DNA of 53,626 nucleotides from a virus. Shown piece after piece: positions 3,753 through 51,795 of this stretch (the stretch's first letter is position 1; every line of letters starts with the position of its first letter). Under the pieces are notes generated by a model. It was not told the origin of the DNA. It saw only the letters and a program-made list of their open reading frames with translations, and ran no database searches. The position numbers and the translations under genes were made by a program. The stretch covers positions 1 to 53,626 of the IMG/VR virus record IMGVR_UViG_3300030117_006365. One strand, 5' to 3'.

Positions 3753-5321
3753 ATGGAATATAATTTACCAAGTGAATTGGTGAAGAACCTCGATTTTGGA
3801 GGTGAAGCCAAAGAGAAGGTTATAACAGGAGTAAACAAATTAGCTCGAGCCGTTAAATCTACATTAGGTGCGTCAGGGAGATGTGTCGTGTATGAGGATG
3901 CGAGGGGCAAACCGGTCATTACAAAAGATGGAGTAACCGTAGCAGAAAGCGTAGTCTTGTATGATCCGGTTGAGAACATGGGTGCAACCTTAATAAAGGA
4001 AGCAGCTATGAACACGGTTAAAGAAGCTGGAGATGGTACTACTACAGCCACAGTGCTAGCAGAAGCACTAATCAAACAAATAGACGCTGCGATCGCAGAT
4101 GGTCTTACAATCAGAGAAATTAAAGATGGAGTAAACGAAACACTGGATAGTGTCATTAGCTATTTAAATAATATAGCTACAGACGTCGAAGGTGACATGC
4201 TTAAATCTATAAGTTCTATATCTTGTAATAATGATAAAGAACTTGGATCCATAATAGCTGAGGCATATGATAAGGTTGGGAAGAATGGAGTTGTGTTAAT
4301 GGAGACTAGTGATTCAGAAGACACTTATGTTGATATTGTTGATGGTGTTCAGATTGATTGTGGACTAACATCACCTCATTTCGTTACTAATACTGATAAA
4401 CATTTATGTGAATTAGATAAACCTTTAATACTAACTGTTTCGTCTGAAATACCTAATATTAGAAAAATACAATCTATATTGGAATACGTTATTAAAAACA
4501 ACCGATCTTTACTAATAATAGCTCAAGTAGCACAGTCGGTAAAGTCGGCGCTCATGATGAATAAAGTTAAAGGTAATATTAAAGTTAATATAATTGACAC
4601 ACCTGGATTTGGACCAACTAGAGTAGATGCAATAGAGGATATAGCTATATTAACTGGAGCAACAGTACTTAATGAAGAATTAGGTGATGATTTAGATCTC
4701 ATGAAGCCAGAACATTTAGGTGAAGCTGAATTTTCTGTAACCGATGATAACAACACGGTCTTGACATTGAGTGGAATGACAGATGACATAGAAAATAGAA
4801 TAGATGATTTAAACAAAAAGTTAGCTGAATGTAAGAATGGTTTTATAAAAAAGAAATTAGAGCAGCGTCTTGCAACGTTGTCGGGTAGTGTTGGTATTAT
4901 TAAGGTTGGTGCTAATTCTAAGGTTGAGTTAAAGGAAAAGAAGGATAGAGTAGAAGATGCGATTCATGCTACAAAAGCAGCATTAAAAGAAGGCATAGTA
5001 CCAGGTGGTGGAATAGCGTTGTTAAACGCATCTCAAAAAATTTCGACCGGACGAGCCGGTAAAGTATTACTAAACGCATTGTCTTCTCCATACGAAACTA
5101 TAATGGATAACGCTGGATTAATGATGAAGCCTAGTAATATGAAAGAGGGTTACGGATGTAATGTGGTTAATGGGACATTTCCTAATATGATTAAAGAAGG
5201 AATAATTGATCCAGTACTAGTAACTAAGTCTGCACTTAAGAATGCTGTGAGTGTAGCTTTAACTATTATGTCAGCAGATTGTGTAATTTCAAATATAAGA
5301 GTAGAAAATGCAAGCGATTAA
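3753..5321 (+). CDS. groEL: phage GroEL-type group I chaperonin
   Basis: This 522-aa chaperonin-60 would form ring cages that fold proteins with ATP and a GroES lid. It has the nucleotide-binding signatures: TKDGVTVA around D59 (equivalent to E. coli D52), GDGTTTATVLA at residues 93-103, and RVEDAIHATKAA with D402 (equivalent to D398, needed for hydrolysis), followed by GIVPGGGIALL. It is somewhat shorter than the ~548-aa bacterial protein and lacks a Gly-Gly-Met C-terminal tail, ending in VENASD. Phage-encoded GroELs are known (for example Pseudomonas phage EL and virioplankton chaperonins), and likely clients are capsid or tail proteins. The gene overlaps groES by 14 bases, with groEL first, the reverse of the usual bacterial order. 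Confidence 0.95.
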   Translation: MEYNLPSELVKNLDFGGEAKEKVITGVNKLARAVKSTLGASGRCVVYEDARGKPVITKDGVTVAESVVLYDPVENMGATLIKEAAMNTVKEAGDGTTTATVLAEALIKQIDAAIADGLTIREIKDGVNETLDSVISYLNNIATDVEGDMLKSISSISCNNDKELGSIIAEAYDKVGKNGVVLMETSDSEDTYVDIVDGVQIDCGLTSPHFVTNTDKHLCELDKPLILTVSSEIPNIRKIQSILEYVIKNNRSLLIIAQVAQSVKSALMMNKVKGNIKVNIIDTPGFGPTRVDAIEDIAILTGATVLNEELGDDLDLMKPEHLGEAEFSVTDDNNTVLTLSGMTDDIENRIDDLNKKLAECKNGFIKKKLEQRLATLSGSVGIIKVGANSKVELKEKKDRVEDAIHATKAALKEGIVPGGGIALLNASQKISTGRAGKVLLNALSSPYETIMDNAGLMMKPSNMKEGYGCNVVNGTFPNMIKEGIIDPVLVTKSALKNAVSVALTIMSADCVISNIRVENASD

Positions 5322-36902: not shown

Positions 36903-39900
36903 ATGAGTAAAAAAGAATATTGGGTTGGCGACAACCTATACACAGTCGATGATGAACATGAAGAAGAGTTTCTTCAGAATCACGAGAATGCAAAATTAAA
37001 AGAAGAAGACACTGACGATTATACTGTTGGCGAAGACGGTCAACGATATACAGTAAATAAGAACGATAAAGAAGAGTTCTTAGAAAAATATCCTGAAGCA
37101 AAACTGCTGTCGGGAAACCAATCAAGCTCTACAGAAAGTGCGACTGTAGGGCAATCAACTCAAGCACGGAAAAATCAATACGACGATTCGGAATTTGCTA
37201 CGGAAGGTATTTTATCGGAATCACAACTCAATCTTAATTCACTATCAGATCATAATATAGACTTCGGGCCTATGCCCGAGATAACCACTGACATCACTGG
37301 TGTTAGTGAGGAAAAGGCTCAAAAACTACTTCAAGACAAGTGGATGGAGCATGGTTTCACATTTGAACAAAAAACTGTTGGTTTAAATAGAATAGAGGTT
37401 ACAGCTTTAAACGGAGAAAAAGAGATATTTAATCTAGGTGGTTTTAAAGGCACGCAAGAAGAAGAAGCTAAACGTATGGACGCTTGGATGAGAGAAAGAG
37501 CTCAACACCAAGGAGACAAACTTCAAACTTTACTATCACATGTTAATGTCACTCAAGATCAAACTAGCACTATTAGACCAACTCAAGATAATGCTCAAGA
37601 TCAAATAAATAAATTAAGAGAAGCTTGGGAGTTAGAGGGTATGTCTGACGAAGATGTTTTAGAAGTCTATAACAAGTATATGGACAACAATAGAAAATTT
37701 GTTCAATATGACATGGACGAAGGGTATGGTCCCGGAGCATCTCAGTGGGTTGATGATATGCATAAAAAACAAGACCAACTGGAGAAAGCTGGTTTTAATA
37801 AGTCTGGAAGGGACTTTAAAAAAAATATAGATAATTTAAACACTCTTGTTGAGGGTAGAAAAGATTATAGAAAACAGGAGGCGTTAAAAAAATACGAAGC
37901 TCAAACAGGTGTTAGTATAGACGGTATGTACGATGACGATGGTATAACTGATAAGGGTATCAAAATACTAAATAGTCAAGAATACAAAAATATATACAAT
38001 AGTTTAAAAGTAGATAAGGATAAACAACAGAAGCACCTTGACAAATATTTTTTAAATAGTAAAACTCAAGATTTCTTAGAAGCAAATCTTAAAAAAGAAA
38101 TCGAAAAATTTTCAAACAATCCGTTTGTAAAATCTTCCACTCAAAAAGAATTACTTGAACTAGCTATTGACAAAAAGAACGCTATGAGCGATAAGTTAAC
38201 TGAAAAAGTTAATAAGTTTAACGTTGCTCATGGTGATTTAGAAAATATATACACTGAGTTATCTGACGCTGCTAAATGGTTAAACTCGATAGGTAATGGA
38301 GAGGAAAAACTAGAGGAGATAAAAGCGAAACATGATTTAACAACCGAAGAGGGTGTTAGAGCTGCTCAAGCTGAATTAAATTTATTTCAAGCTCAATATC
38401 AAGAGAAGAGAGATAGGTTTGATTTTCTACAGAAAAAAAGAGGTCAATATGAAAAGTTCGCTAACAATATAGCTAAAGACTTAAACTCTAAAGACGCTTT
38501 AACAGAAGGTCAAATAACAACCGTTATTGACGCCTTAAACAGAAACTACCAACAAGGTACAGTTATGAGTGTTCAACTAATGAATGCTACTATAGATCTA
38601 GCTCAAGGTATAGGTGAGGCTGGTGATATGATACTATCTATACCTAAAGAAATAGTTAAAGCTATAGACAATCCAGCTGTTGATGGTTATATACAAGCTA
38701 ATCCAGGTGTTAATTCAAATACATCTAATAAAGAAAAAGAAAATTGGTGGAGTGAACTAAATGCTAGCATAGATGATTGGCAAAAGGGAACACAACTACT
38801 AATTGAAAAACCAACTAAATTTAATGAGATAAATTCTTTAAGTAGTTTTGGAGAATGGGTTAGTGGTATGGCTGCTGGTCAAGTACCAATACTAGCAACA
38901 ATGGCTGTTAGTGGTGGTGCTTCATTATATATTATGGGTGCTTCAAGCGCTGGTTCTAAATGGAGAGAAATGAACGATGCTAAGGACGAATATAATAGAA
39001 CTGGTGGTTTGTATGGTACTAATCATGCTTGGGGAACTATGTTTGCTAATTCTGTATTTACTGGTACAGCTGAAGCATTATCTGAAAGAATAACACTTGG
39101 TCAAGTTAATAGAATGAAAGGTATACTTGGTTTTGGTGACGTTGCTAAACTAGGTTTTGAAAAAACTCTAAGACAGTCAGTTTTTCAAACAGCTAGATTA
39201 GCCGCGACAGATAGATTAACAGAGGGTGTATCTGAGTCTGTTGCACAATTATCTAGTAATTTTGCTGATGTTGTTTCTGGTAGTAAGAGTTATGCTGATA
39301 TATGGGAAGGTATACCAGAGTCATTTGTTAGTGGAGTTATAATATCACAGGGATTAGCAACTCCTGGTCTAGGTAAAGCGCTATCTGCTCCATTTAGATC
39401 AGCTGATACAAACCAAAGGGTTGGTGAAATGTCTAAGAAGATAAACGAACTAACTAAACGTGCTGGAAGATTTGATATTGATTCTAAAGAAAGAAAAGCT
39501 ATAGAGGCTGAAATCGCTGGACTAGTTGATAAGAGTAATAGTTTAATAGAACAAGATATTAAGAGAGTCAATCTACTAACAGATGGGGAAAAGAAAGCTC
39601 TTATAAACATAGAGAAACAAAACTACGAAGCTAGGAAGAAAGCTGAAGATATAATGTTAGATAAGAAACTAACAGATAAAGAAAAGAAACAACAATTAGC
39701 TGATCTACAAGCTAAGGTTGACATGAGGGCTAAAACCAAAAATGATATAATAGGTAAGTACGAGCCTAACGTTGTTGACGCTAATTACGAAAGAGAGATG
39801 GATTGGTTTAAAAGACAAGCTGAACTATCTAATCAACGTGGTGATATTAAAACGAAAGTAAGAGAAGTTAGTAGAGATGAATTTATAGATCTTAATGCTA

Positions 39901-42900
39901 AACAAGAGGGTGAAAAATCTAAAGCAGCAGTTGATGATGCTATTATGCAAAAACAAGGTGAGATAGAGGGTTTGTTAAATGTACTTAGATCACCACGTAG
40001 AAAAAATCAAAGTGTAGAACAATATAATGAAACTAAAAAAGACGCTTCAAGATTACTAAAACAAGCTAGATCACAAGAAAGTCAAATGATGTCTGTCTTA
40101 GCCCAAGGTAATGATTACGGTATGATGATACCTAAAATTAAAAATGGAAACCTAGTTGGAATGGATGTTGTTATAAATAGAAATGCAGCATTAACTGATG
40201 GTCAACTAAACACTGGTGCTCATGAATTTTTACATGCTCAATTTGCTAACACACTTAAAGGAGATCCTGGTGCTAGAAGTGTATTAGGTCAACAAATGAA
40301 TAAAATTATCAACACTGGTAAAATGCGATTTAAAAACCCTAGTGCTAAAGCTGAGTACGCTAATAGAATATCTATGTACGAAAAGGATAAAAGAGGGGAG
40401 GAGCAGTTTACTATACTATCTGAAATGATGAGAGATGGTAAGGTGTCTATAAATGAAGGAACGACACAGAAGTTTAAAGACTTTTTTAGAAGGTTTAGTA
40501 GAAATTATAACAATAGACCTATAGCTTTTAATGAAACTCAAGATGTATTAGACTTTATAAAAGACTTTGATTATAATATAAGAAAAAACAAACTAAGTCC
40601 TGCTATGGCAGAAATGCTACAGAAAGGAGCTAACGGAAGAATGTTTGAAGACGTCAAAGATAGTAAGACTAGAGATCAAATGAAATCTTTTAATAGAGCT
40701 GTTGATTTAAATAGAAGGCAGAATCCAGATTTAAAAAGAGAATACGATCAGTTTGTTCAAAACAGTGATGGGACTAGAAAATACGAAGACCACAAGATGT
40801 TTACAGACTCTCCAGATTATTATGGGGCTTATTTGAATATAGTTGAAGGGAGAGCTCTAGACGGTTTAATTCAGCATGGTATGACTGAACGTGGTTTACC
40901 ACCAGAAGCTTTAAGAGAGTTTACGAGAATGGCTAAGGAGGAGGTTGGAAGACGTTTCTTAGAAAACTACGACTACGATAAGAATGATAGTTTATTTGGT
41001 TGGTTAACTGGTGTGTCAGGAGGAGCTGGTATGTCTATTATATATAGAGCTAAAGGTGACGTGATGGTTAAATATAAGAAAGATAACAAAGCTGAACTAA
41101 CCTCTATAGATAAACCTGTTAGTGATGATGGTGCTAGACTAAGTGATGTGATACAGGACGAAAGAGATATACTGTTAGAAGAAATAGACAATCAAGATTT
41201 ATCTTTAAATAGAAGAAGAGAAGCTAAGCAGGCTGTTAGAGATCTTAAAGTTAAAGAAATGTTAAATTTCTCTGACAACGCTAGAAAAGCTATTATATTA
41301 AATATCCGTGAAATGGATATTCCATTAGATGGGTTAACATACAAGGGTGTTAAAGATCTTTTAATTAGTGTTGATAAAAAAGCTACATCAGAAAAGAAGA
41401 TTACTCCTAATGGACCTTTATTTCCAGTATTAAATGCTGTTGCTACTGAATTTGGTGTTGACCCATTAAGAATATTAGCTAAGCAAGATTTAAACGGGGA
41501 GCAAAGAGAAGCAGCTCAAAGTTACATACTAGACAAAACAACAAACGAAGATGGTAGCTTTAACACCGATTTATTAGATATGTTACCAGAGGGAGAAACG
41601 AGGAGTGGTGAGGCAACTGGTATAGCAAACACCAAACTAGGTCAATTGTATCAAACAGGTGCTAGGCTAAAAGTTGCTGAAGGTGCTGACAAAGCTTTAG
41701 GTCAAAAGAAAGCTCAAATAAAAAGAAGTAACATATCAAAAGCAGAGTTCTTAGATATATTTGGTATTGAACCAAATGGTAAACTTAGGAAAGGAACTAA
41801 AGCTGACGGTGCTATAAGAGCTTTAGTTGTTGCTACTGCTCAAATAGCTGCTAATCAAGATATGCGAATAAACGCATTAACAAATGGTACTACCAATGAG
41901 GCTGTTGCGGCTAAGTTGGGTGATGGAAGATCTGAGGTTATGCTTAGTAAAAAAATAAAAGCAGAAAACCTAGATGTGTTTCAAGATCGTTGGGCTGAAG
42001 CTATTAGTGGTTTAGATTCTATAAACGTTCACGATTGGAAGTCTATAAAAGGACACTTAGTCAATGTGTATGGTGATGTTATGGAAAACAACGAGCTAAC
42101 AGGTATGGCTAAAGATTGGGCCAAGTGGAGTCAAGAGTTTGATGAGTTGAAGTTACCAGATAACTTTGAAAACGTTAATCACTTAGATTATTACAATAGG
42201 GAAACATATGTAATATCTAAAACAAATGAAGCATTATTAGATACCAGTATATTAAAAATGTTTGCTGGTAATTTTGTTTCACCAGTTAAAAGTGTTACAG
42301 AGTTGTTTAATAGTAGAGACAGGGTTAATAAAGCTAGAGGTTCAATTGTTGATTTTGGAAATCACGCTATAGAGAATTTAAAATGGAAACCTGAAAAACT
42401 AATTAGAACGTTATTTACACAGTACCAAGGCATGTATGCTGGTGCTTATAGAATAGGTGATGGTAGATGGACCGTTAAAAAGGGTAGAGTTGTAGCAGCA
42501 CCATTACCAGAGGGTCAAACAAAACACGGAACAAACAGAGGTCAAGTTTTTACTGGAATAGAAGATTTTATATCTACACTATCTAAGATTAATGGTTTTA
42601 AAAATATAAAAGGAAAAAGTAGAAAACAAATAGGTGAGATGTTCAACGTTGATTTAAAAACGTTTTCTGAAACATCTGATGCAGCTATTAAAGATCAAGA
42701 TTACGAAGGTAGATTAAACCAAGCTAAGGAAGCTAGGGAGGCCGTACAAGACTTAGTGGATTTTTATGTTGATAGAATATACAATGGAGAGGCTCAATTT
42801 GAGGACCTAGCTATGTTAACTAGAATGTTTGGTTCTAATATGAAGTCTCCTATGAAAAGAGCGGCTAATTTAGCTTATATAGCTAAAGGTGCTTCTAGTA

Positions 42901-45900
42901 TACCATCAGATCAAAGAGGTAAAAAGTTAGAATATGAACACATGGTTCCAACTAACTTAAAGATATTACAACTGGTAGACAGTTATGTTAACCAAAGAGG
43001 TGTTGTTGATGGATTTTGGGACGATTATACTGTCGCTGTTATACCTAAGACTATGGATAGAGTTTTAATAGATTCTGGTCTTAGAGATTTCATGCAACTA
43101 GGTTATCAACCTGGTATGGCCTCGTGGAAAAGATACTATAACAACCAAACCTTTGGTAAGAAAGGAATAGTACCAATTAAAAACATACAAACCGGAGAAA
43201 TAGTAGGACAAGAGTTTGTTAAAGCTAGTGATAAGTTTGTTGTCAATAAAAATGCTCAAACAGTTATACAAAATACTAGAGCTGAGGTTATGAAAAGTAA
43301 GTGGGGTTGGAAAAAGAAAAAACCAGAGATAAGAGGTATGTCTGCGTTTGACTTTGATGAAACACTTATTATAGATGGAGATAACTTTATAATGGCTAAC
43401 AACCCTGAGACTGGTGAGACAGAAAGAATAAGCTCTGAGGATTGGCCAACTAGAGGAACTGAATTAATGGATCAAGGTTGGGAGTTTGATTTTGATGATT
43501 TTATAAATGTAAGAGGAGGTGTTGAAGGTCCATTGTTTCAAAAGCTTTTAAATAGAATAGAAAAGTATGGACCAGAAAATAACTTTATATTAACAGCTAG
43601 ACCTCAAGAGTCCGCTATTGCTATACATGGTTGGTTAAAATCTAAAGGTGTTGAAATACCATTAGAAAATATAACTGGATTAGGTGATAGTAAAGGTGAT
43701 TCTAAAGCTGCTTGGATATTAGAGAAGTACAAAGAGGGTTACAACGATATGTATTTTGTTGATGACGCTTTGCCAAACGTGAAGGCTGTTAAGCATGTTA
43801 TGGATCAGTTAGATGTTAAGGGTAGTTCTGTTCAAGTTGGTGTAAGAAAAATTGGTGGTTTACTAGTTGATACCAATACACCTGAAGGTAAAAAGATTTG
43901 GGAAGAAATAAAAAACATACCAACTGTTAGATCTTCAACAACCAACTCTGTTAAGAAGTTTGGTCGATGGCTATTAGACACAGCAACACCTGAGGGCAAA
44001 GCTATACTAAAAGAATTTGAAAGCATACCAACAGTGAGCTCAAGTGAACCAGGTAGAGTTGTTAAAAGAGATAGTGACGCTATGAAAAGCAAATCTCTTA
44101 AAGAAAGAATTATTGACACTCAGTCTATAGATAAAGATTTTAACGACATGTTAGCTAGAACTTCTTTTGTTGGAGCTGACAGAGTTATATCAAAATCAGA
44201 AGCTCAACGTTTGGGTATAGGTAAAGGTAGATATGATTGGTTTGTTCCACCTTCAGCTGAGGATATGAAAGGTTTATTCTATAGGTTTTTAGGTAAAGGG
44301 GAACAGGGTAACGCTGATATGAAGTGGTACAGAGAGTTCTTGTCTGATCCATATGCTAAAGGAATAAAAGCTTGGACGAACTATGTTCAAGGTATGGCTA
44401 ATGATTATACGGCTCTTAGAAAAGCCATGCCAAATGCAGCTAAAGTGTTAAAACAAAACCTACCAAATTCTCCGTTTACAGGCGATGCTGCTATTAGAGT
44501 ATACCTGTGGAATAAAAATGGTATTGAAATACCAGGTTCCTCGCCCCAACAAGTTCAACAAATGGTTGAATTCGTAGAGGCTGATCCTGATTTAGTTGGT
44601 TTTGCTGAAGCCTTAAGTAGAGTTAGTAAGAGACCAGAGGGATATGTACAACCTACAGAAAATTGGGCTGTACAGAGTATAGCGTATGATTTAAAAGAAG
44701 CTGGTTATACTTTAGGCAGAAAAGATTTTTTACATGAGTGGGTTGAAAATAAAAACATTATTTTCTCAGATAAAAATTTAAATAAAATAGAGGCTATATA
44801 CGGTAAGCCAACTAGAACAGCTTTAGAAAACATGCTTCATAGAATGGAGACTGGTGTTAATAGACCTACCGGTAGAGATGGTGCTACTAATAGATTTTTA
44901 AACTGGATAAATGGTTCGGTTGGAGCAGTGATGTTCTTTAATATGAGATCTGCTTTACTACAAACTATATCTACAGTTAACTTTATAAACTGGGAGGATA
45001 ATAACATATTTAGAGCCGCTCAAGCTTTTGCTAATCAACCTCAATTCTGGAGTGATTTCGCGATGATATTTAATTCAGATATGCTTAAACAAAGAAGATC
45101 TGGATTACAAATAGATGTCAACGCTAATGAGCTATCTAATGCTTTTAGAGATGGAAGAAGTAAACCAGAAGCTGTTATTAGATGGTTGTTAGAAAAAGGT
45201 TTTATGCCTACTCAAATAGCTGATAGTTTTGCTATAGCTATGGGTGGTTCTAGTTTTTATAGAAACAGGTTGAATGATTATATAAGAGAGGGTGCTACAC
45301 CAGAGCAAGCGCAGAATCAGGCTTGGTTAGACTTCCAAGAGATAGCTGAAGAAACACAACAGTCTTCTAGACCTGATTTAATATCAGAACAACAAGCTGG
45401 TGTTTTAGGTAGATTAATACTTGCTTGGCAAAACACTCCAATGCAGATGACTAGGTTAACAAAGAAAGCTTTGTCCGATCTTGCTAACGGTAGAGGTAGT
45501 GCTAAAGCTAATATATCAAGAATAATGTATTATGGATTTATTCAAAATATTATATTTGGTATACTACAAAGTGGATTAGCGTTTATTGCTTTTGGTGATG
45601 AAGAGGAAGAAAAGAAAAAGAAAACAGAAAGAGTTTTAAATGGAGCGTTTGACACGTTATTAAGAGGTACTGGGGTTGGTGGTGCTGTTGTAGCAACATT
45701 AAAAAACACTATATTAAAATTCATAGAACAGAGAAAGAAAGGTTGGACGGGTGATCAAACATATACTATTATTGAAGCCATAAACTTATCACCTCCTCTT
45801 GGTAGTAAGTTTAGAAAAATATATAACGCTATACAAACTGACAAGTTTAATAAGGGTGTTAGTGAGAAGTTAAAATATAGAATTGAAAATCCATTTTTAA

Positions 45901-46451
45901 GTATAGTTGGTAATGTTGTTGAAGCATTAACTAACTTCCCAATGGCTAGATTAATAAACAAAGCTAATAACATAGAAGAAGCTATAACTGGTAATCACGA
46001 TCTTTGGCAAAGAATAGCAATGTTAGGTGGTTGGAATAGATGGACTGTTGGTGCTGAAGACGAAGAGCTAGAAGAAGCTAAACAAGAAGTTAAAGATGAA
46101 AAGGCTGAAAAAAAGAAAATAGAAAAAGAAATAAAAAAAGAGGAAGAGAAAAAGAAAAAAGAAGAAGAAAAGAAAGCTGAAGAAGAGAAAAAGAAAAAAG
46201 ATGGAATAAAACAAGTTAGATGCTCTGCTACCAAATCAAACGGTCAAAGATGTAACATGATGGTTGAGACTAAAAACAAAACAGCTAAGTGTGTGTATCA
46301 TAGAGATTTAACTGATGAGGAGAAAAAAGAAGGTACTGATAGGGATAACGATGGAATAAAGGAGTTTAGATGTACAGCAACAAAGAAAAATGGTCAACGT
46401 TGTAAAAATAGAACAGAGAATAAAAACAAGAAATGTTATGCTCATCAATAA
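36903..46451 (+). CDS. giant multidomain internal virion/ejection-like protein (3182 aa)
   Basis: The N-terminus has two ~34-residue repeats (YWVGDNLYTVDD...EEFLQ; YTVGEDGQRYTVN...EEFLE). Long coiled coils and a hydrophobic region near residues 650-690 follow. A zincin motif, H1107-E-F-L-H1111, lies in NTGAHEFLHAQF. A HAD phosphatase has motif I FDFDETL (D2150, D2152, T2154), motif II LTARP (T2231) and motif IV VDDALPN (D2287/D2288). A 29-aa tandem duplication (…DT-x-TPEGK…IPTV…) follows. A C-terminal virion-protein region has QNTPMQMTRL and a membrane helix (IIFGILQSGLAFIAFG). Last are two CxATxxNGQRC...KCxxH zinc-binding-like modules. Giant polyvalent proteins of this type are usually packaged and injected. 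Confidence 0.7.
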   Translation: MSKKEYWVGDNLYTVDDEHEEEFLQNHENAKLKEEDTDDYTVGEDGQRYTVNKNDKEEFLEKYPEAKLLSGNQSSSTESATVGQSTQARKNQYDDSEFATEGILSESQLNLNSLSDHNIDFGPMPEITTDITGVSEEKAQKLLQDKWMEHGFTFEQKTVGLNRIEVTALNGEKEIFNLGGFKGTQEEEAKRMDAWMRERAQHQGDKLQTLLSHVNVTQDQTSTIRPTQDNAQDQINKLREAWELEGMSDEDVLEVYNKYMDNNRKFVQYDMDEGYGPGASQWVDDMHKKQDQLEKAGFNKSGRDFKKNIDNLNTLVEGRKDYRKQEALKKYEAQTGVSIDGMYDDDGITDKGIKILNSQEYKNIYNSLKVDKDKQQKHLDKYFLNSKTQDFLEANLKKEIEKFSNNPFVKSSTQKELLELAIDKKNAMSDKLTEKVNKFNVAHGDLENIYTELSDAAKWLNSIGNGEEKLEEIKAKHDLTTEEGVRAAQAELNLFQAQYQEKRDRFDFLQKKRGQYEKFANNIAKDLNSKDALTEGQITTVIDALNRNYQQGTVMSVQLMNATIDLAQGIGEAGDMILSIPKEIVKAIDNPAVDGYIQANPGVNSNTSNKEKENWWSELNASIDDWQKGTQLLIEKPTKFNEINSLSSFGEWVSGMAAGQVPILATMAVSGGASLYIMGASSAGSKWREMNDAKDEYNRTGGLYGTNHAWGTMFANSVFTGTAEALSERITLGQVNRMKGILGFGDVAKLGFEKTLRQSVFQTARLAATDRLTEGVSESVAQLSSNFADVVSGSKSYADIWEGIPESFVSGVIISQGLATPGLGKALSAPFRSADTNQRVGEMSKKINELTKRAGRFDIDSKERKAIEAEIAGLVDKSNSLIEQDIKRVNLLTDGEKKALINIEKQNYEARKKAEDIMLDKKLTDKEKKQQLADLQAKVDMRAKTKNDIIGKYEPNVVDANYEREMDWFKRQAELSNQRGDIKTKVREVSRDEFIDLNAKQEGEKSKAAVDDAIMQKQGEIEGLLNVLRSPRRKNQSVEQYNETKKDASRLLKQARSQESQMMSVLAQGNDYGMMIPKIKNGNLVGMDVVINRNAALTDGQLNTGAHEFLHAQFANTLKGDPGARSVLGQQMNKIINTGKMRFKNPSAKAEYANRISMYEKDKRGEEQFTILSEMMRDGKVSINEGTTQKFKDFFRRFSRNYNNRPIAFNETQDVLDFIKDFDYNIRKNKLSPAMAEMLQKGANGRMFEDVKDSKTRDQMKSFNRAVDLNRRQNPDLKREYDQFVQNSDGTRKYEDHKMFTDSPDYYGAYLNIVEGRALDGLIQHGMTERGLPPEALREFTRMAKEEVGRRFLENYDYDKNDSLFGWLTGVSGGAGMSIIYRAKGDVMVKYKKDNKAELTSIDKPVSDDGARLSDVIQDERDILLEEIDNQDLSLNRRREAKQAVRDLKVKEMLNFSDNARKAIILNIREMDIPLDGLTYKGVKDLLISVDKKATSEKKITPNGPLFPVLNAVATEFGVDPLRILAKQDLNGEQREAAQSYILDKTTNEDGSFNTDLLDMLPEGETRSGEATGIANTKLGQLYQTGARLKVAEGADKALGQKKAQIKRSNISKAEFLDIFGIEPNGKLRKGTKADGAIRALVVATAQIAANQDMRINALTNGTTNEAVAAKLGDGRSEVMLSKKIKAENLDVFQDRWAEAISGLDSINVHDWKSIKGHLVNVYGDVMENNELTGMAKDWAKWSQEFDELKLPDNFENVNHLDYYNRETYVISKTNEALLDTSILKMFAGNFVSPVKSVTELFNSRDRVNKARGSIVDFGNHAIENLKWKPEKLIRTLFTQYQGMYAGAYRIGDGRWTVKKGRVVAAPLPEGQTKHGTNRGQVFTGIEDFISTLSKINGFKNIKGKSRKQIGEMFNVDLKTFSETSDAAIKDQDYEGRLNQAKEAREAVQDLVDFYVDRIYNGEAQFEDLAMLTRMFGSNMKSPMKRAANLAYIAKGASSIPSDQRGKKLEYEHMVPTNLKILQLVDSYVNQRGVVDGFWDDYTVAVIPKTMDRVLIDSGLRDFMQLGYQPGMASWKRYYNNQTFGKKGIVPIKNIQTGEIVGQEFVKASDKFVVNKNAQTVIQNTRAEVMKSKWGWKKKKPEIRGMSAFDFDETLIIDGDNFIMANNPETGETERISSEDWPTRGTELMDQGWEFDFDDFINVRGGVEGPLFQKLLNRIEKYGPENNFILTARPQESAIAIHGWLKSKGVEIPLENITGLGDSKGDSKAAWILEKYKEGYNDMYFVDDALPNVKAVKHVMDQLDVKGSSVQVGVRKIGGLLVDTNTPEGKKIWEEIKNIPTVRSSTTNSVKKFGRWLLDTATPEGKAILKEFESIPTVSSSEPGRVVKRDSDAMKSKSLKERIIDTQSIDKDFNDMLARTSFVGADRVISKSEAQRLGIGKGRYDWFVPPSAEDMKGLFYRFLGKGEQGNADMKWYREFLSDPYAKGIKAWTNYVQGMANDYTALRKAMPNAAKVLKQNLPNSPFTGDAAIRVYLWNKNGIEIPGSSPQQVQQMVEFVEADPDLVGFAEALSRVSKRPEGYVQPTENWAVQSIAYDLKEAGYTLGRKDFLHEWVENKNIIFSDKNLNKIEAIYGKPTRTALENMLHRMETGVNRPTGRDGATNRFLNWINGSVGAVMFFNMRSALLQTISTVNFINWEDNNIFRAAQAFANQPQFWSDFAMIFNSDMLKQRRSGLQIDVNANELSNAFRDGRSKPEAVIRWLLEKGFMPTQIADSFAIAMGGSSFYRNRLNDYIREGATPEQAQNQAWLDFQEIAEETQQSSRPDLISEQQAGVLGRLILAWQNTPMQMTRLTKKALSDLANGRGSAKANISRIMYYGFIQNIIFGILQSGLAFIAFGDEEEEKKKKTERVLNGAFDTLLRGTGVGGAVVATLKNTILKFIEQRKKGWTGDQTYTIIEAINLSPPLGSKFRKIYNAIQTDKFNKGVSEKLKYRIENPFLSIVGNVVEALTNFPMARLINKANNIEEAITGNHDLWQRIAMLGGWNRWTVGAEDEELEEAKQEVKDEKAEKKKIEKEIKKEEEKKKKEEEKKAEEEKKKKDGIKQVRCSATKSNGQRCNMMVETKNKTAKCVYHRDLTDEEKKEGTDRDNDGIKEFRCTATKKNGQRCKNRTENKNKKCYAHQ
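43854..44048 (+). repeat. tandem 29-residue duplication inside the giant protein
   Basis: Segment 43854-43940 (GGLLVDTNTPEG...IPTVRSST) and segment 43962-44048 (GRWLLDTATPEG...IPTVSSSE) encode two copies of a 29-residue unit separated by seven residues, directly after the HAD domain. The DNA has diverged, so the duplication is not recent. Confidence 0.8.
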
Positions 46452-47885: not shown

Positions 47886-48377
47886 ATGGAATTAGAAGTA
47901 ATTAGAATAAGTAGTGGCACTGATAGTACAAATGGTATATTATTAGAGACAATACAACAAGGTAATGAAATAGATGGAATTTTTAAACAAAAAAAATTTC
48001 TAGCATACACACTAGAAGATGAATATAGAAGTGAAAAAGTATTTGGGGAAACAAGGATACCGGATGGTAGGTATAGGCTGGGCCTTAGAAAGGTTGGCGG
48101 ATATCATGCGAAATATTCTAAGCGCTTTCCTCATATTCACGTTGGGATGCTCCACGTGCTTGACGTTCCTGGTTTTGAGTATATACTTATTCATTGTGGA
48201 AATACTGACGAACATACAGCGGGCTGCTTACTCGTCGGAGATTCCCAAGAAAACAATCAAATCACGAAGGACGGTTTTATAGGTAAATCCACTCAAGCAT
48301 ATAAAAGAATTTATCCACGGATAGCAGAAGCTATTGATTGTGGAGAGGAAGTAACAATAACATATAAAACAATATAA
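47886..48377 (+). CDS. DUF5675-like protein, putative lysis enzyme
   Basis: This 163-aa protein has the order FLAYTLEDEYR, FGETRIPDGRYRLGLRK, FPHIHVGMLHVLDVPGFEYI, ILIHCGNTDEHTAGCLLVGD and GKSTQAYKRIYPRI. This matches DUF5675, found in phage lysis regions. The H-C-G-N...GC run resembles the H...GC signature of L,D-transpeptidase-like enzymes, so it may act on peptidoglycan. By eye, the gene from about 48040 is more G/C-rich than its neighbours, perhaps from exchange. The substrate has not been shown. Confidence 0.65.
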   Translation: MELEVIRISSGTDSTNGILLETIQQGNEIDGIFKQKKFLAYTLEDEYRSEKVFGETRIPDGRYRLGLRKVGGYHAKYSKRFPHIHVGMLHVLDVPGFEYILIHCGNTDEHTAGCLLVGDSQENNQITKDGFIGKSTQAYKRIYPRIAEAIDCGEEVTITYKTI

Positions 48378-48747: not shown

Positions 48748-49029
48748 ATGAGATCAAGAAAACAAATGACACCTGGCATGAAGAAGTGTAAGGATAAATA
48801 TGGTTCACCGTACAAAGCTGCAGACGCTAACTTAGTTAAGGGGGCTTCTGAAGTTGCTCAAGGTAATATGAATGCGGCGGTTAATCAAAAGACAACAACG
48901 GAAAAACTAGCTGATATAGGGCAACAACAAGTTAATAAATACATGGGAGACGACGCTATCGATTTTGGTAGTTATGGTTACACGTCTAATCAACAGATAC
49001 AAGAAAACAACGAAGCTGCAAGCGTATGA
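48748..49029 (+). CDS. small virion-like protein with RKQMTPG...SPYK leader
   Basis: This 93-aa protein starts MRSRKQMTPGMKKCKDKYGS, followed by PYKAADANLVKGASEVA. RKQMTPG is repeated in the 51797 product, and the SPYK block matches that of the 35454 product. The rest is Gln/Asn-rich helix. The stop overlaps the next start by four bases (ATGA). Its small size and the leader suggest a carrier of a common tag rather than an enzyme. Confidence 0.55.
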   Translation: MRSRKQMTPGMKKCKDKYGSPYKAADANLVKGASEVAQGNMNAAVNQKTTTEKLADIGQQQVNKYMGDDAIDFGSYGYTSNQQIQENNEAASV

Positions 49030-50075
49030 GACTTTTAATATTATTATTGTTTGTTTGCACTATAGGTAGTGCTCAAATAAAAGACTTCTTTAAATACTCA
49101 ACATTCTACACTTCCATGACAATGGGTACATCTTTCACTGAGGAAGAAGATTATGTTGCTATAGATAAAGGTTATGAAGATGTTACCTGGGTTAATCCAT
49201 ATGATTATAACTTAACAATCGGTTTGAGAAAAATTGCTCGTATGGATTATGAGTACAAGGTTAAAACGTGGTATTACGGAACTGAAGATGGAGTTAGTGA
49301 CAACGTTACTATTGGTAATGCTATTGGATGGGAATATCTTTTAAACTATTCTTTTATACGTGAGCGTGGGGAAAAGTTTAATAATCAAAATCTTTGGTTA
49401 AGATATTTGGGTAATAGCTGCGTAACAAAACTACAGTATACGGATAACCAAAGAGTTAATTTAAGATTTGGGTCATTTGATACTAGATTTAGATTAACAA
49501 AAGGTAATTGGGATTTCACTGTTGGTGCGGTAGCTAGAATACACCCTGTTTATGGGGTAACTCCAATAGATGATTTCTGGGTACCAGGAGAAAACACGTT
49601 CCAGGATTTAGCGGAAGACTTTGGTTATGCCGCAGAACCTTGGATGCAGGGATTTTATATCGACCAGAATTGGTACGATGTTAGTGGTGGAGATTCCGTA
49701 CTTATCGCTACCTCAAACGACGAGTTTTTCCACCACTATTTCGGAGACGCAGTTGCTAGGTTTAATGAGAGGGAATTAGAGAAGTTGGGATTACAAAGAG
49801 AATTAAGCGCTGTTATTGGTTTAGCTTACTACAAGTACACTCCTAAAATGTGGTTACACGTTTGGGCTAATTGCTTACCATTACACTATGGGTTAGATGA
49901 ATATTCATTTGAATACGGAAAAGAAAAATATGACAACATAGAATGGGATGCTGGTATTGTTTTTGGTTCTAGAATAACAAAATCTTTAGGAATGTTTGTA
50001 GAAGGAACTCACATGAAGTACTGGGAAAAACCAGTATATGAAGTGAAGTTTGGTTTTAACTATTTAATACTTTAA
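49026..50075 (+). CDS. exported outer-membrane beta-barrel-like protein
   Basis: This 349-aa protein has a signal peptide MRLLILLLFVCTIGSA with likely cleavage before Gln17, as in many Bacteroidota envelope proteins. The mature part is rich in aromatic-flanked beta strands (YNLTIGLRKIARMDYEYKVK; QRVNLRFGSFDTRFRLTKGN; VYEVKFGFNYLIL pattern) and ends in an aromatic/hydrophobic strand, as in outer-membrane barrels. It is probably placed in the host envelope late in infection, for superinfection exclusion, lysis or release. The family recurs in marine Bacteroidota-type phages as far as I recognise. A virion role cannot be excluded. Confidence 0.65.
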   Translation: MRLLILLLFVCTIGSAQIKDFFKYSTFYTSMTMGTSFTEEEDYVAIDKGYEDVTWVNPYDYNLTIGLRKIARMDYEYKVKTWYYGTEDGVSDNVTIGNAIGWEYLLNYSFIRERGEKFNNQNLWLRYLGNSCVTKLQYTDNQRVNLRFGSFDTRFRLTKGNWDFTVGAVARIHPVYGVTPIDDFWVPGENTFQDLAEDFGYAAEPWMQGFYIDQNWYDVSGGDSVLIATSNDEFFHHYFGDAVARFNERELEKLGLQRELSAVIGLAYYKYTPKMWLHVWANCLPLHYGLDEYSFEYGKEKYDNIEWDAGIVFGSRITKSLGMFVEGTHMKYWEKPVYEVKFGFNYLIL

Positions 50076-50077
50076 TT

Positions 50078-50269
50078 ATGGCGTTTAAAATGAAAAGACC
50101 TCCATATAAGGAACACTCTAAATTTGCTCCGTTTTCGGACGAACATAAATACGGTGGGGACGATGACACGGATGGGCCTTATGGCATGCATCCATCAGAC
50201 TGGAAGAGTCCAGAAAGAATAGAAAGAGAAAAAGCAGAAAAAGAAAATAAAAAAGAAGATAATGAATAA
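50078..50269 (+). CDS. small leader-type protein (63 aa)
   Basis: This 63-aa charged protein starts MAFKMKRPPYKEHSKFAPFS, the M-A-[FY]-K-M-[KR] leader with PPYK in place of SPYK. The rest is acidic and Lys-rich without hydrophobic segments. It overlaps the T9SS-like protein gene by eight bases. It is nearly all leader, which argues that the leader itself has a job. Confidence 0.5.
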   Translation: MAFKMKRPPYKEHSKFAPFSDEHKYGGDDDTDGPYGMHPSDWKSPERIEREKAEKENKKEDNE

Positions 50270-51056
50270 ATATATATTAATACTATTTGCGTTTATTGGC
50301 TCGTTCGCTAATGCGCAAGGATATGACTTTCAACAATTGTGTTTAGATTGTGTAGAGCAAAATGGTTTTTATTGTGGAGATGATCCAGCAAACTGGACAC
50401 AATACTCACCTAACGGTTGTGTACCTAACGGTGCTGGTGGATTAGAATATTTAAATGACGGTTGGGAAGACTGTGTAGATGGTAGTGATGAGAATGGAGC
50501 AGTACCAACACCAGCTGAAGAGTGTGGACCCGTTAATCCACCTGATGGTTGTGATACTGTCTACGTTGATGTTCCAATTGTAGAAATAGATACAGTAGAA
50601 GTTGAAGTTCCATTTTATATATATGAAACCGAATTTATATTTGACACAATTATTGAAACAGAATACATCACAAACATCGTTATAGACACGTTTGAGATTG
50701 AAACATTTGTTCCGGAATACATTTATATAACTGATACAGTTTTTGTTTACGAGGATGTGTTAGACACATTATTCGTTGATGTTATTGAATACGTTGAAGT
50801 TGTTGTTTATGATACTGTCGTGGAAACACAAACAGAATATATTGAGATTTTCGTTGTTGACACCGTTGTAGAGTATGTAGAAGTAATAAACACTGAGTAT
50901 ATCGATTGTGACTCTGGTTTACCTTGTAATTCTGGAATACAAGAGGTTATAGATAAATCACTTCAAAACTCTGTAATATATAATCTACAGGGACAAGCGA
51001 TATTAACAAGAGAAGGATTATACATAGAGAACGGTAAAATTTATTATAAAAAATAA
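50262..51056 (+). CDS. secreted protein with LDLa-like module, DT repeats and T9SS-like C-terminal tail
   Basis: This 264-aa protein has a signal peptide MNKYILILFAFIGSFANA with cleavage before Gln19. A Cys-rich N-terminal region includes GWEDCVDGSDENG, like the calcium-binding end of LDL-receptor class A modules. Residues ~97-220 are a run of imperfect Val/Ile/Thr/Glu repeats anchored by D-T (VDTVEVEV, FDTIIETEY, YDTVVETQTEY, VDTVVEYVEV). The end, VIYNLQGQAILTREGLYIE followed by NGKIYYKK, resembles a type A sorting domain of the type IX secretion system (G-x-Y and terminal Lys). It would be carried to the host surface or exterior. Confidence 0.6.
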   Translation: MNKYILILFAFIGSFANAQGYDFQQLCLDCVEQNGFYCGDDPANWTQYSPNGCVPNGAGGLEYLNDGWEDCVDGSDENGAVPTPAEECGPVNPPDGCDTVYVDVPIVEIDTVEVEVPFYIYETEFIFDTIIETEYITNIVIDTFEIETFVPEYIYITDTVFVYEDVLDTLFVDVIEYVEVVVYDTVVETQTEYIEIFVVDTVVEYVEVINTEYIDCDSGLPCNSGIQEVIDKSLQNSVIYNLQGQAILTREGLYIENGKIYYKK

Positions 51057-51400
51057 TGGCTAAAGAATTATCAGAAGATAGCAAGTTTCAAATAAGTGTT
51101 AAAACATTGATAGCTATAGTGATGGCTGTTGTTACAGTCGTTTCAGCTTATTTTGGTTTAATGGCAACAATCAACTCTAAGTTTTCAGAACTTGAAGTTA
51201 AGGTTAATGAAGCATTGGAACTACCAAAACCAGGTACTGGTACATATACTATAGACATGGGCGATCCAGCTGCTACCAACACGTGGCCTCCAACTAGAAT
51301 GGAGTTTAACATGAAAGATCAAATGGCTCGTAATAAAATCGATGCAGTAATAAAGGAGATGGATGAGATAAAAGAAGATATAAAATATTTAAGAAAATGA
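51056..51400 (+). CDS. membrane-anchored holin/spanin-like protein
   Basis: This 114-aa protein has one N-terminal transmembrane helix (LIAIVMAVVTVVSAYFGLMA, about residues 18-37) after a short charged segment. A periplasm- or cytoplasm-facing region with a PKPG turn follows, and a C-terminal charged coiled coil (DAVIKEMDEIKEDIKYLRK). Such proteins in lysis cassettes serve as holins or inner-membrane spanin partners. It starts inside the stop of the previous gene (TAATG) and overlaps the next by four bases. Confidence 0.55.
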   Translation: MAKELSEDSKFQISVKTLIAIVMAVVTVVSAYFGLMATINSKFSELEVKVNEALELPKPGTGTYTIDMGDPAATNTWPPTRMEFNMKDQMARNKIDAVIKEMDEIKEDIKYLRK

Positions 51401-51795
51401 TGAAACAAATAGACATTTCAAACTACCTTTATATATTACTAATGCTACTAGCCTTTGGTTGTGGTACTGTTATGGGTCAAGATTTTATCAATGGAGATTT
51501 TGATGAGAAGATAGCTAAAGATATTGTTGCTGTAGAGTTTTGGGCTGATTGGAATTCTGCTAATCAATTCAACGATTTAGTTAAATTAAAAGAGTGTGAG
51601 AAGTATAGATTAGATATAATGGCTAAAGCTGATATACAAGCTGAATATAATATAACAGGTATTCCAACTGTTATTATATTTGATAACGGAATAGAGAAAG
51701 CTAGGTTTAATCCTAATATAATGTTTAAATTAGATGCTTGTAAAAAAACAGTGCAACATTCTGTTGACACAATTAAACTAAGTAAATTTCAGTAA
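51397..51795 (+). CDS. exported thioredoxin-fold protein lacking CxxC
   Basis: This 132-aa protein has a hydrophobic signal (YLYILLMLLAFGCGTVMG) with likely cleavage before Gln28. The mature part follows a thioredoxin pattern: AVEFWADWNSANQF where W-C-x-x-C would be, then KADIQAEYNITGIPTVIIFD with the cis-Pro loop. The two active-site Cys are replaced by Asn53 and Asn56, so it is probably not an oxidoreductase. It may be a binding or envelope-stress protein. It follows the membrane protein gene by a four-base overlap. Confidence 0.65.
   Translation: MMKQIDISNYLYILLMLLAFGCGTVMGQDFINGDFDEKIAKDIVAVEFWADWNSANQFNDLVKLKECEKYRLDIMAKADIQAEYNITGIPTVIIFDNGIEKARFNPNIMFKLDACKKTVQHSVDTIKLSKFQ

Follow-up and report, generated by a model that had tools for sequence, protein, structure and literature searches.

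A phage-encoded exported stalk protein with a candidate shortened type IX secretion signal and a neighbouring outer-membrane barrel

Can a bacteriophage use the type IX secretion system (T9SS) of its host to place a protein of its own on the surface of the infected cell? The question is raised by IMG/VR virus record IMGVR_UViG_3300030117_006365, a 53.6-kb stretch (53,626 nt, analysed over its full length and called the window below) that probably comes from a marine phage of flavobacteria and carries genes for a P22-like portal, terminase and GroEL, and in particular by a gene for a 264-aa exported protein. A sequence-only reading had described this protein as phage-encoded and secreted, with an LDLa-like module and a T9SS-like sorting tail; the terminase, portal and GroEL genes bear out the viral origin. 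Our preferred interpretation, to which we assign a probability of roughly 60%, is that the protein is cargo of a phage surface-display cassette using the host T9SS, with a signal that has been truncated in this branch.

The proposed open reading frame (ORF) of 264 codons was confirmed in the sequence and is organized as follows.

50262..51056, plus strand: 264-aa exported stalk protein (ATG at 50262, 264 codons, stop at 51054-51056; 89 distinct homologues)
50262..50315, plus strand: signal peptide, residues 1-18 (MNKYILILFAFIGSFANA), cleavage before Q19 (from sequence and homologue pattern)
50340..50525, plus strand: LDLa-like six-Cys module (C27, C30, C38, C53, C71, C88; N65 in place of the canonical C4)
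50550..50909, plus strand: DT-anchored stalk C97-C216, two-residue periodic, without Lys or Arg
50904..50927, plus strand: D-C-x-x-G-x-P-C knot (C216, C222), at least 95% invariant
50928..51053, plus strand: sorting-like tail, residues 223-264, with core 237-264 (SVIYNLQGQAILTREGLYIENGKIYYKK; hhalign to cellular short tails)

A tblastn search of viral contigs yielded 91 relatives, from which 89 distinct proteins were aligned. All 89 keep a fixed order of signal peptide, six-Cys head, C97-DT stalk, DCxxGxPC knot and tail. Nine Cys are retained in 86 of them, and at least 95% invariance was found for the Cys framework, an NWTQY.P.GC core, the DT anchors and the tail residues Y240, G244, Y254, I255 and G258. 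Given these relatives and invariant positions, the features of the protein are not due to chance. Its N-terminus (MNKYILILFAFIGSFANAQ) is of the Sec type, as in T9SS type A cargo, and a hydrophobic run with Gln at 16-23, near the expected cleavage site, recurs in 89/89 homologues; this assignment, made from the sequence pattern only, agrees with the export proposed earlier.

Evidence for our interpretation comes, among other sources, from the neighbouring gene and its relatives in other phages.

49026..50075, plus strand: outer-membrane beta barrel OMP349 with signal peptide (AlphaFold2 (AF2) pLDDT 70.8, pTM 0.68; Foldseek)

The top Foldseek matches of OMP349 are outer-membrane barrels (EstA, FapF, OMPLA), and NCBIfam gave no match. 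Members of this barrel family were confirmed in at least 482 viral stretches, where they usually adjoin genes for exported proteins, about half of them with a genuine type A C-terminal domain (CTD). When 51 phage records were searched with the sorting-domain model TIGR04183, two scored above the cut-off, both with a barrel homologue. In a 115-kb phage, the genes run in the order transmembrane (TM) protein, thioredoxin-like protein, 993-aa exported protein with CTD, barrel and short-tail stalk protein; the 993-aa cargo (TIGR04183, 40.5 bits) ends a few nucleotides before the barrel gene, and the short-tail protein follows 1.4 kb after it. A hidden Markov model (HMM) built from cellular CTDs only detected a CTD-bearing ORF in 68 of 132 barrel loci, 54 directly upstream of the barrel. 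Matches to the official TIGR04183 model exceeded its cut-off in 34 of 50 phage records with a barrel. All 35 hits lie on the strand of the barrel gene and within 4.6 kb of it: 30 end upstream (29 of these at no more than 800 nt and one at 2.7 kb) and the remaining five lie 2.9-4.5 kb downstream. The loci sampled are related to one another and lean towards the closest branch to the 115-kb phage. As the same barrel gene accompanies cargo with the complete tag in related phages, it is probable that such phages place proteins on the surface of infected cells.

A third conserved tail (ITDILGRP...LLFFIYKDGTVEKKFIK; ITDILGRPA..KNKLLFFIYKDGTVEKKFIK) occurs in 31 exported proteins encoded upstream of the barrel gene (loci L396, L404, L412, L416, L424, L426 and others). 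As a candidate CTD relative it matched CTDs no better than shuffled sequences did, and it was therefore not counted.

Does the 264-aa protein itself carry a sorting signal? Its tail measures about 28 residues, compared with 70-80 for a full CTD, and had no match in NCBIfam, Pfam or PHROG. The sorting-domain HMM search, named beforehand as a refuting test of the sequence-only reading, likewise turned out negative: neither TIGR04183 nor PF18962 matched the 264-aa protein at E 10 or E 0.001. AF2 predicted a helix (226-236) and a hairpin (252-263) with pLDDT 64-79, and the Ig-like 7-strand CTD fold was absent from the model, the segment being too short for seven strands; the structural check, too, formally goes against the sequence-only reading as worded. 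A Foldseek search with the low-confidence model of the 264-aa protein gave a meaningless result. Since both the TIGR04183/Pfam searches and the predicted fold speak against it, a standard type A sorting domain is ruled out, and the tail is at most a truncated CTD. When the tail profile was compared directly with that of 33 cellular type A CTDs, the match covered 10 columns (30%, score 19.4; at most 14.0 in 60 shuffles).

A closer likeness was obtained through short tails on cellular proteins. Searched against 295 genomes of the bacterial class, the tail profile returned a single short spurious match. Cellular short tails were selected by scanning 395 genomes of the class for DNA that could encode G-x-Y-I-x-[ND]-G-K; two genomes held eight sites each, and the reversed control gave zero in those two. 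The proteins at these sites are mostly exported-looking, with ends of the form ...VYNLSG...GIYIVNGKKVVVK, and one short tail (G227:C15) overlaps a TIGR04183 match. By hhalign, the phage tail aligned with the cellular short tails at 95.3% (E 2e-8, score 39; best of 100 shuffles 13.5), a match whose GxYIx[ND]GK half is inflated because the short tails were selected with that pattern, and the short tails aligned with full type A CTDs at 93.9%. Via these intermediates, the conserved last ~22 residues of a CTD (D/E motifs, terminal Lys) can be recognized in the phage tail, the direct match being weaker. The last 22 residues of the CTD are needed for T9SS export of HBP35 fusions (PMC3120885). SprA and GldM were present in all short-tail genomes tested; as SprA occurs in 385/395 genomes of the class, its presence is uninformative about a T9SS linkage of the short tails.

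The tail likeness might instead reflect convergence of a short beta hairpin, on a protein that stays periplasmic or is released at lysis. The lack of a sorting-domain HMM match, the 10-column direct match and the pattern-based choice of cellular tails would all fit this. However, the YNLxGQ half lies outside the selection pattern, yet nearly all C-terminal cellular matches show Y-x-x-x-G at the corresponding place. In addition, when viral contigs were searched with the tail alone, the same tail turned up on a different exported phage protein, of 166 aa and without LDLa (L212-L216); judged by this comparison, the tail is portable between exported phage proteins. We therefore consider convergence very unlikely. 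The originally proposed likeness to type A CTDs is retained by way of the intermediate short tails and the cassette neighbours in other phages, but not in its stronger form, as a tail of ~28 residues is no full CTD.

Several observations weigh against the cargo interpretation, in addition to the negative HMM and fold results, the 10-column limit of the direct match and the uninformative SprA count given above. None of the LDLa-type phage records tested contains a standard CTD, so that the cargo status of their proteins depends on the short tail and on where the gene lies. In P. gingivalis, the 3+4 sandwich of the CTD has been reported as essential (PMC11285876). In related phages the barrel stands beside a T9SS cargo gene, directly downstream of it in most cases with a CTD hit; in the window, it lies upstream of the cargo, not downstream. 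OMP349 was also rejected as a PorP/SprF protein, with only 4.5% in hhalign against TIGR03519. Finally, the cassette loci are related and partly redundant.

If the protein is T9SS cargo, its signal peptide suggests that it would be exported by Sec and fold in the periplasm, with an LDLa-like head that is held together by disulfide bonds and sits on an extended, acidic beta stalk. The tail, as a shortened relative of the type A sorting-domain end, would then direct T9SS-dependent crossing of the outer membrane via the host SprA/PorV translocon. The phage barrel encoded just upstream would probably help as a shuttle or serve as an anchor, a role suggested by gene pairing that resembles SprB-SprF. 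Display late in infection could coat or block the cell surface, for example by masking receptors against superinfection or against progeny loss on debris; this function is a guess, and a doubtful one. The broader proposal is that marine flavophages have a cassette dedicated to hijacking the T9SS. In it, full or truncated type A cargo and a barrel, acting as shuttle or anchor and from a family not related to PorV or PorP/SprF, would together bring phage proteins to the infected-cell surface. We regard it as tenable, at somewhat less than even odds.

Further genes around the barrel and stalk protein bear on whether the cassette has another function.

47886-48377: DUF5675 protein (residues HxG...HCGN...GCLLVG)
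50078..50269, plus strand: 63-aa ORF between the barrel and 264-aa genes, not generally conserved (2 loci)
51056..51400, plus strand: 114-aa protein with short cytoplasmic N-terminus, one TM helix and coiled coil; i-spanin/holin-like in shape
51397..51795, plus strand: 132-aa exported protein with a thioredoxin fold and a hydrophobic N-terminus, lacking CxxC (PF00085, E 8.8e-7)

The TM topology of the 114-aa protein was read from its sequence. In the thioredoxin-fold protein, a conserved WN..N replaces the CxxC region across 81 aligned sequences. Among 121 loci around a 264-aa-type gene, 120 have the upstream barrel, 107 the TM/coiled-coil protein and 110 the thioredoxin-fold protein, all on the same strand. 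These neighbours might instead form an envelope-disruption (lysis) module. The TM protein would then work as an i-spanin does, the barrel and the long disulfide stalk would bridge the periplasm, and the tail would serve only in folding or anchoring. The spanin-like shape of the 114-aa protein, a holin-like ORF near the cassette of another phage and the late position after the structural genes, next to the DUF5675 gene, are in line with this; the DUF5675 protein is reminiscent of a peptidoglycan enzyme and is a possible lysis gene. Such a module leaves unexplained why barrel genes directly follow bona fide T9SS cargo in other phages and why the tail resembles a CTD, and we consider it unlikely.

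What, on the cargo interpretation, would be displayed? The DCVDGSDE element noted earlier is present at residues 70-77 and conforms to the acidic calcium-site motif DCxDGSDE; C71, D73, D76 and E77 are invariant or nearly so in the family. The six-Cys C1-C6 framework of LDLa is matched at 5/6 positions (C4 is N65, and C27 is extra), and Pfam Ldl_recept_a scored the window protein at 13.2 bits, under its cut-off of 24.1. When the family profile was searched against the PDB, the top ranks were LDLa modules of VLDLR, LRP1, glucosidase II beta and others (E 0.03-0.7), and in bacterial genomes the head profile found three marine proteins from metagenome-assembled genomes (L130, L131, L132). L130 (Crocinitomicaceae) carries two copies of the head with the same CxxC...LNDGWEDC variant, PKD domains and a Por_Secre_tail, and its LDLa match of 26.7 bits exceeds the Pfam cut-off of 24.1. 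In L131 and L132 (Neomarinimicrobiota) the canonical fourth Cys is present (YICDG vs YLNDG), and L132 ends in a Por_Secre_tail. On the strength of the PDB ranking and these marine homologues, the head is, as far as sequence comparison goes, an LDLa variant (C4 to N65, extra Cys27) shared with bacterial T9SS-type proteins. It shares with the LDLa repeat (PF00057) the GC...W/YL.DG..DC.DGSDE core and the Cys richness, and LDLa is likewise found on T9SS-tailed bacterial proteins; it differs in the C4-to-Asn exchange, the extra Cys27 and a long C5-C6 loop. The proposed LDLa-like module is thus upheld by cellular homologues with genuine LDLa and T9SS CTDs, although only a partial LDLa repeat was matched.

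The stalk contains 8 exact DT steps, or 13 when NT and ET are counted; ten or so repeats had been suggested earlier. Evidence for its periodicity is the family-wide parity rather than the single window stalk, whose DT gaps are even in 7/7 cases and for which an acidic-face test as a single sequence was not significant (p 0.09). Across family stalks (39-177 residues), Tyr residues share one parity in 996/1005 cases and Pro residues in 157/158, and Lys and Arg are absent from 88/88. A very long beta structure with two faces would need such a periodicity; AF2 confidence on the stalk was low (pLDDT about 25-35).

The protein might also be a virion component, either a fibre or a decoration protein with an LDLa-like binding tip. 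The gene does lie among late genes, after small decoration-like ORFs and a giant protein.

36903-46451: giant protein, 3182 aa, C-terminus with two Cys/His repeats (CSATKSNGQRC...CVYH / CTATKKNGQRC...CYAH)

The signal peptide in all homologues and the disulfide-rich design, however, imply export before assembly, and none of the cultured phages searched carries the protein or the cassette, which makes a virion role improbable. In other phages (L402, L418, L423), giant proteins encoded immediately before the barrel gene end in Cys/His repeats similar to those of the 3182-aa protein.

How does the cassette compare with known systems? With T9SS type A cargo, the phage protein shares the N-terminal signal peptide, a YxLxGx...GxYIx..GK..K at the extreme C-terminus and the motif order of the CTD end, whereas its tail lacks the N-terminal strands and the PNP motif in addition to the HMM match and Ig-like fold. 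Compared with Bacteroidota short C-terminal tails (e.g., L300, RIYNISGQRLTQKPTHGIYIINGKKTTGK), it is near-identical in layout and spacing; those tails are on cellular proteins, the phage tail on a viral one. In F. johnsoniae, a type B cargo gene is directly followed by the gene of its cognate shuttle barrel (PMC12618676). Such pairs of SprB (type B CTD) and SprF/PorP-like proteins (PMC12618676, PMC9143113) resemble the phage cassette in that cargo is encoded beside an outer-membrane barrel, which in related phages lies directly downstream; the phage cargo, however, has a type A or short tail, its barrel lacks similarity to the TIGR03519 profile, and the window has the reverse gene order.

Phage-encoded T9SS cargo, called unusual by the sequence-only reading, is uncommon but has precedents. 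As far as the consulted parts of these reports go, Cryophage encodes T9SS cargo with a suggested role in superinfection exclusion (PMC7468147), and crAss-like phages have BACON/T9SS ORFs (PMC6949934). These cases likewise place T9SS sorting domains on phage proteins, but on enzymes, PA14 or BACON proteins with standard sorting domains; the barrel cassette, LDLa module and truncated tail are not described in those parts. The combination of cargo-barrel cassette and short tail appears undescribed in the literature searched. If true, the recurrent cassette in many viral contigs would mean that phages systematically reshape Bacteroidota cell surfaces, the short tail would be a natural minimal T9SS signal for testing the need for the whole Ig-like CTD, and the barrel would point to outer-membrane shuttles of a new, cargo-specific class. 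Since T9SS adhesins such as SprB and RemA may act as phage receptors (PMC13288928), a link to superinfection exclusion is directly testable.

The terminase of the window has 43-63% identity to podovirus terminases among the matches listed, and the records matched belong to phages that infect Flavobacterium, Cellulophaga, Tenacibaculum and Maribacter.

3753-5321: phage GroEL homologue (phrog_5725)

Another record, IMGVR_UViG_3300030098_004828 (L358/L360; 245,646 bp), contains two near-identical cassette copies ~119 kb apart, probably because a phage of ~119 kb was assembled as a concatemer.
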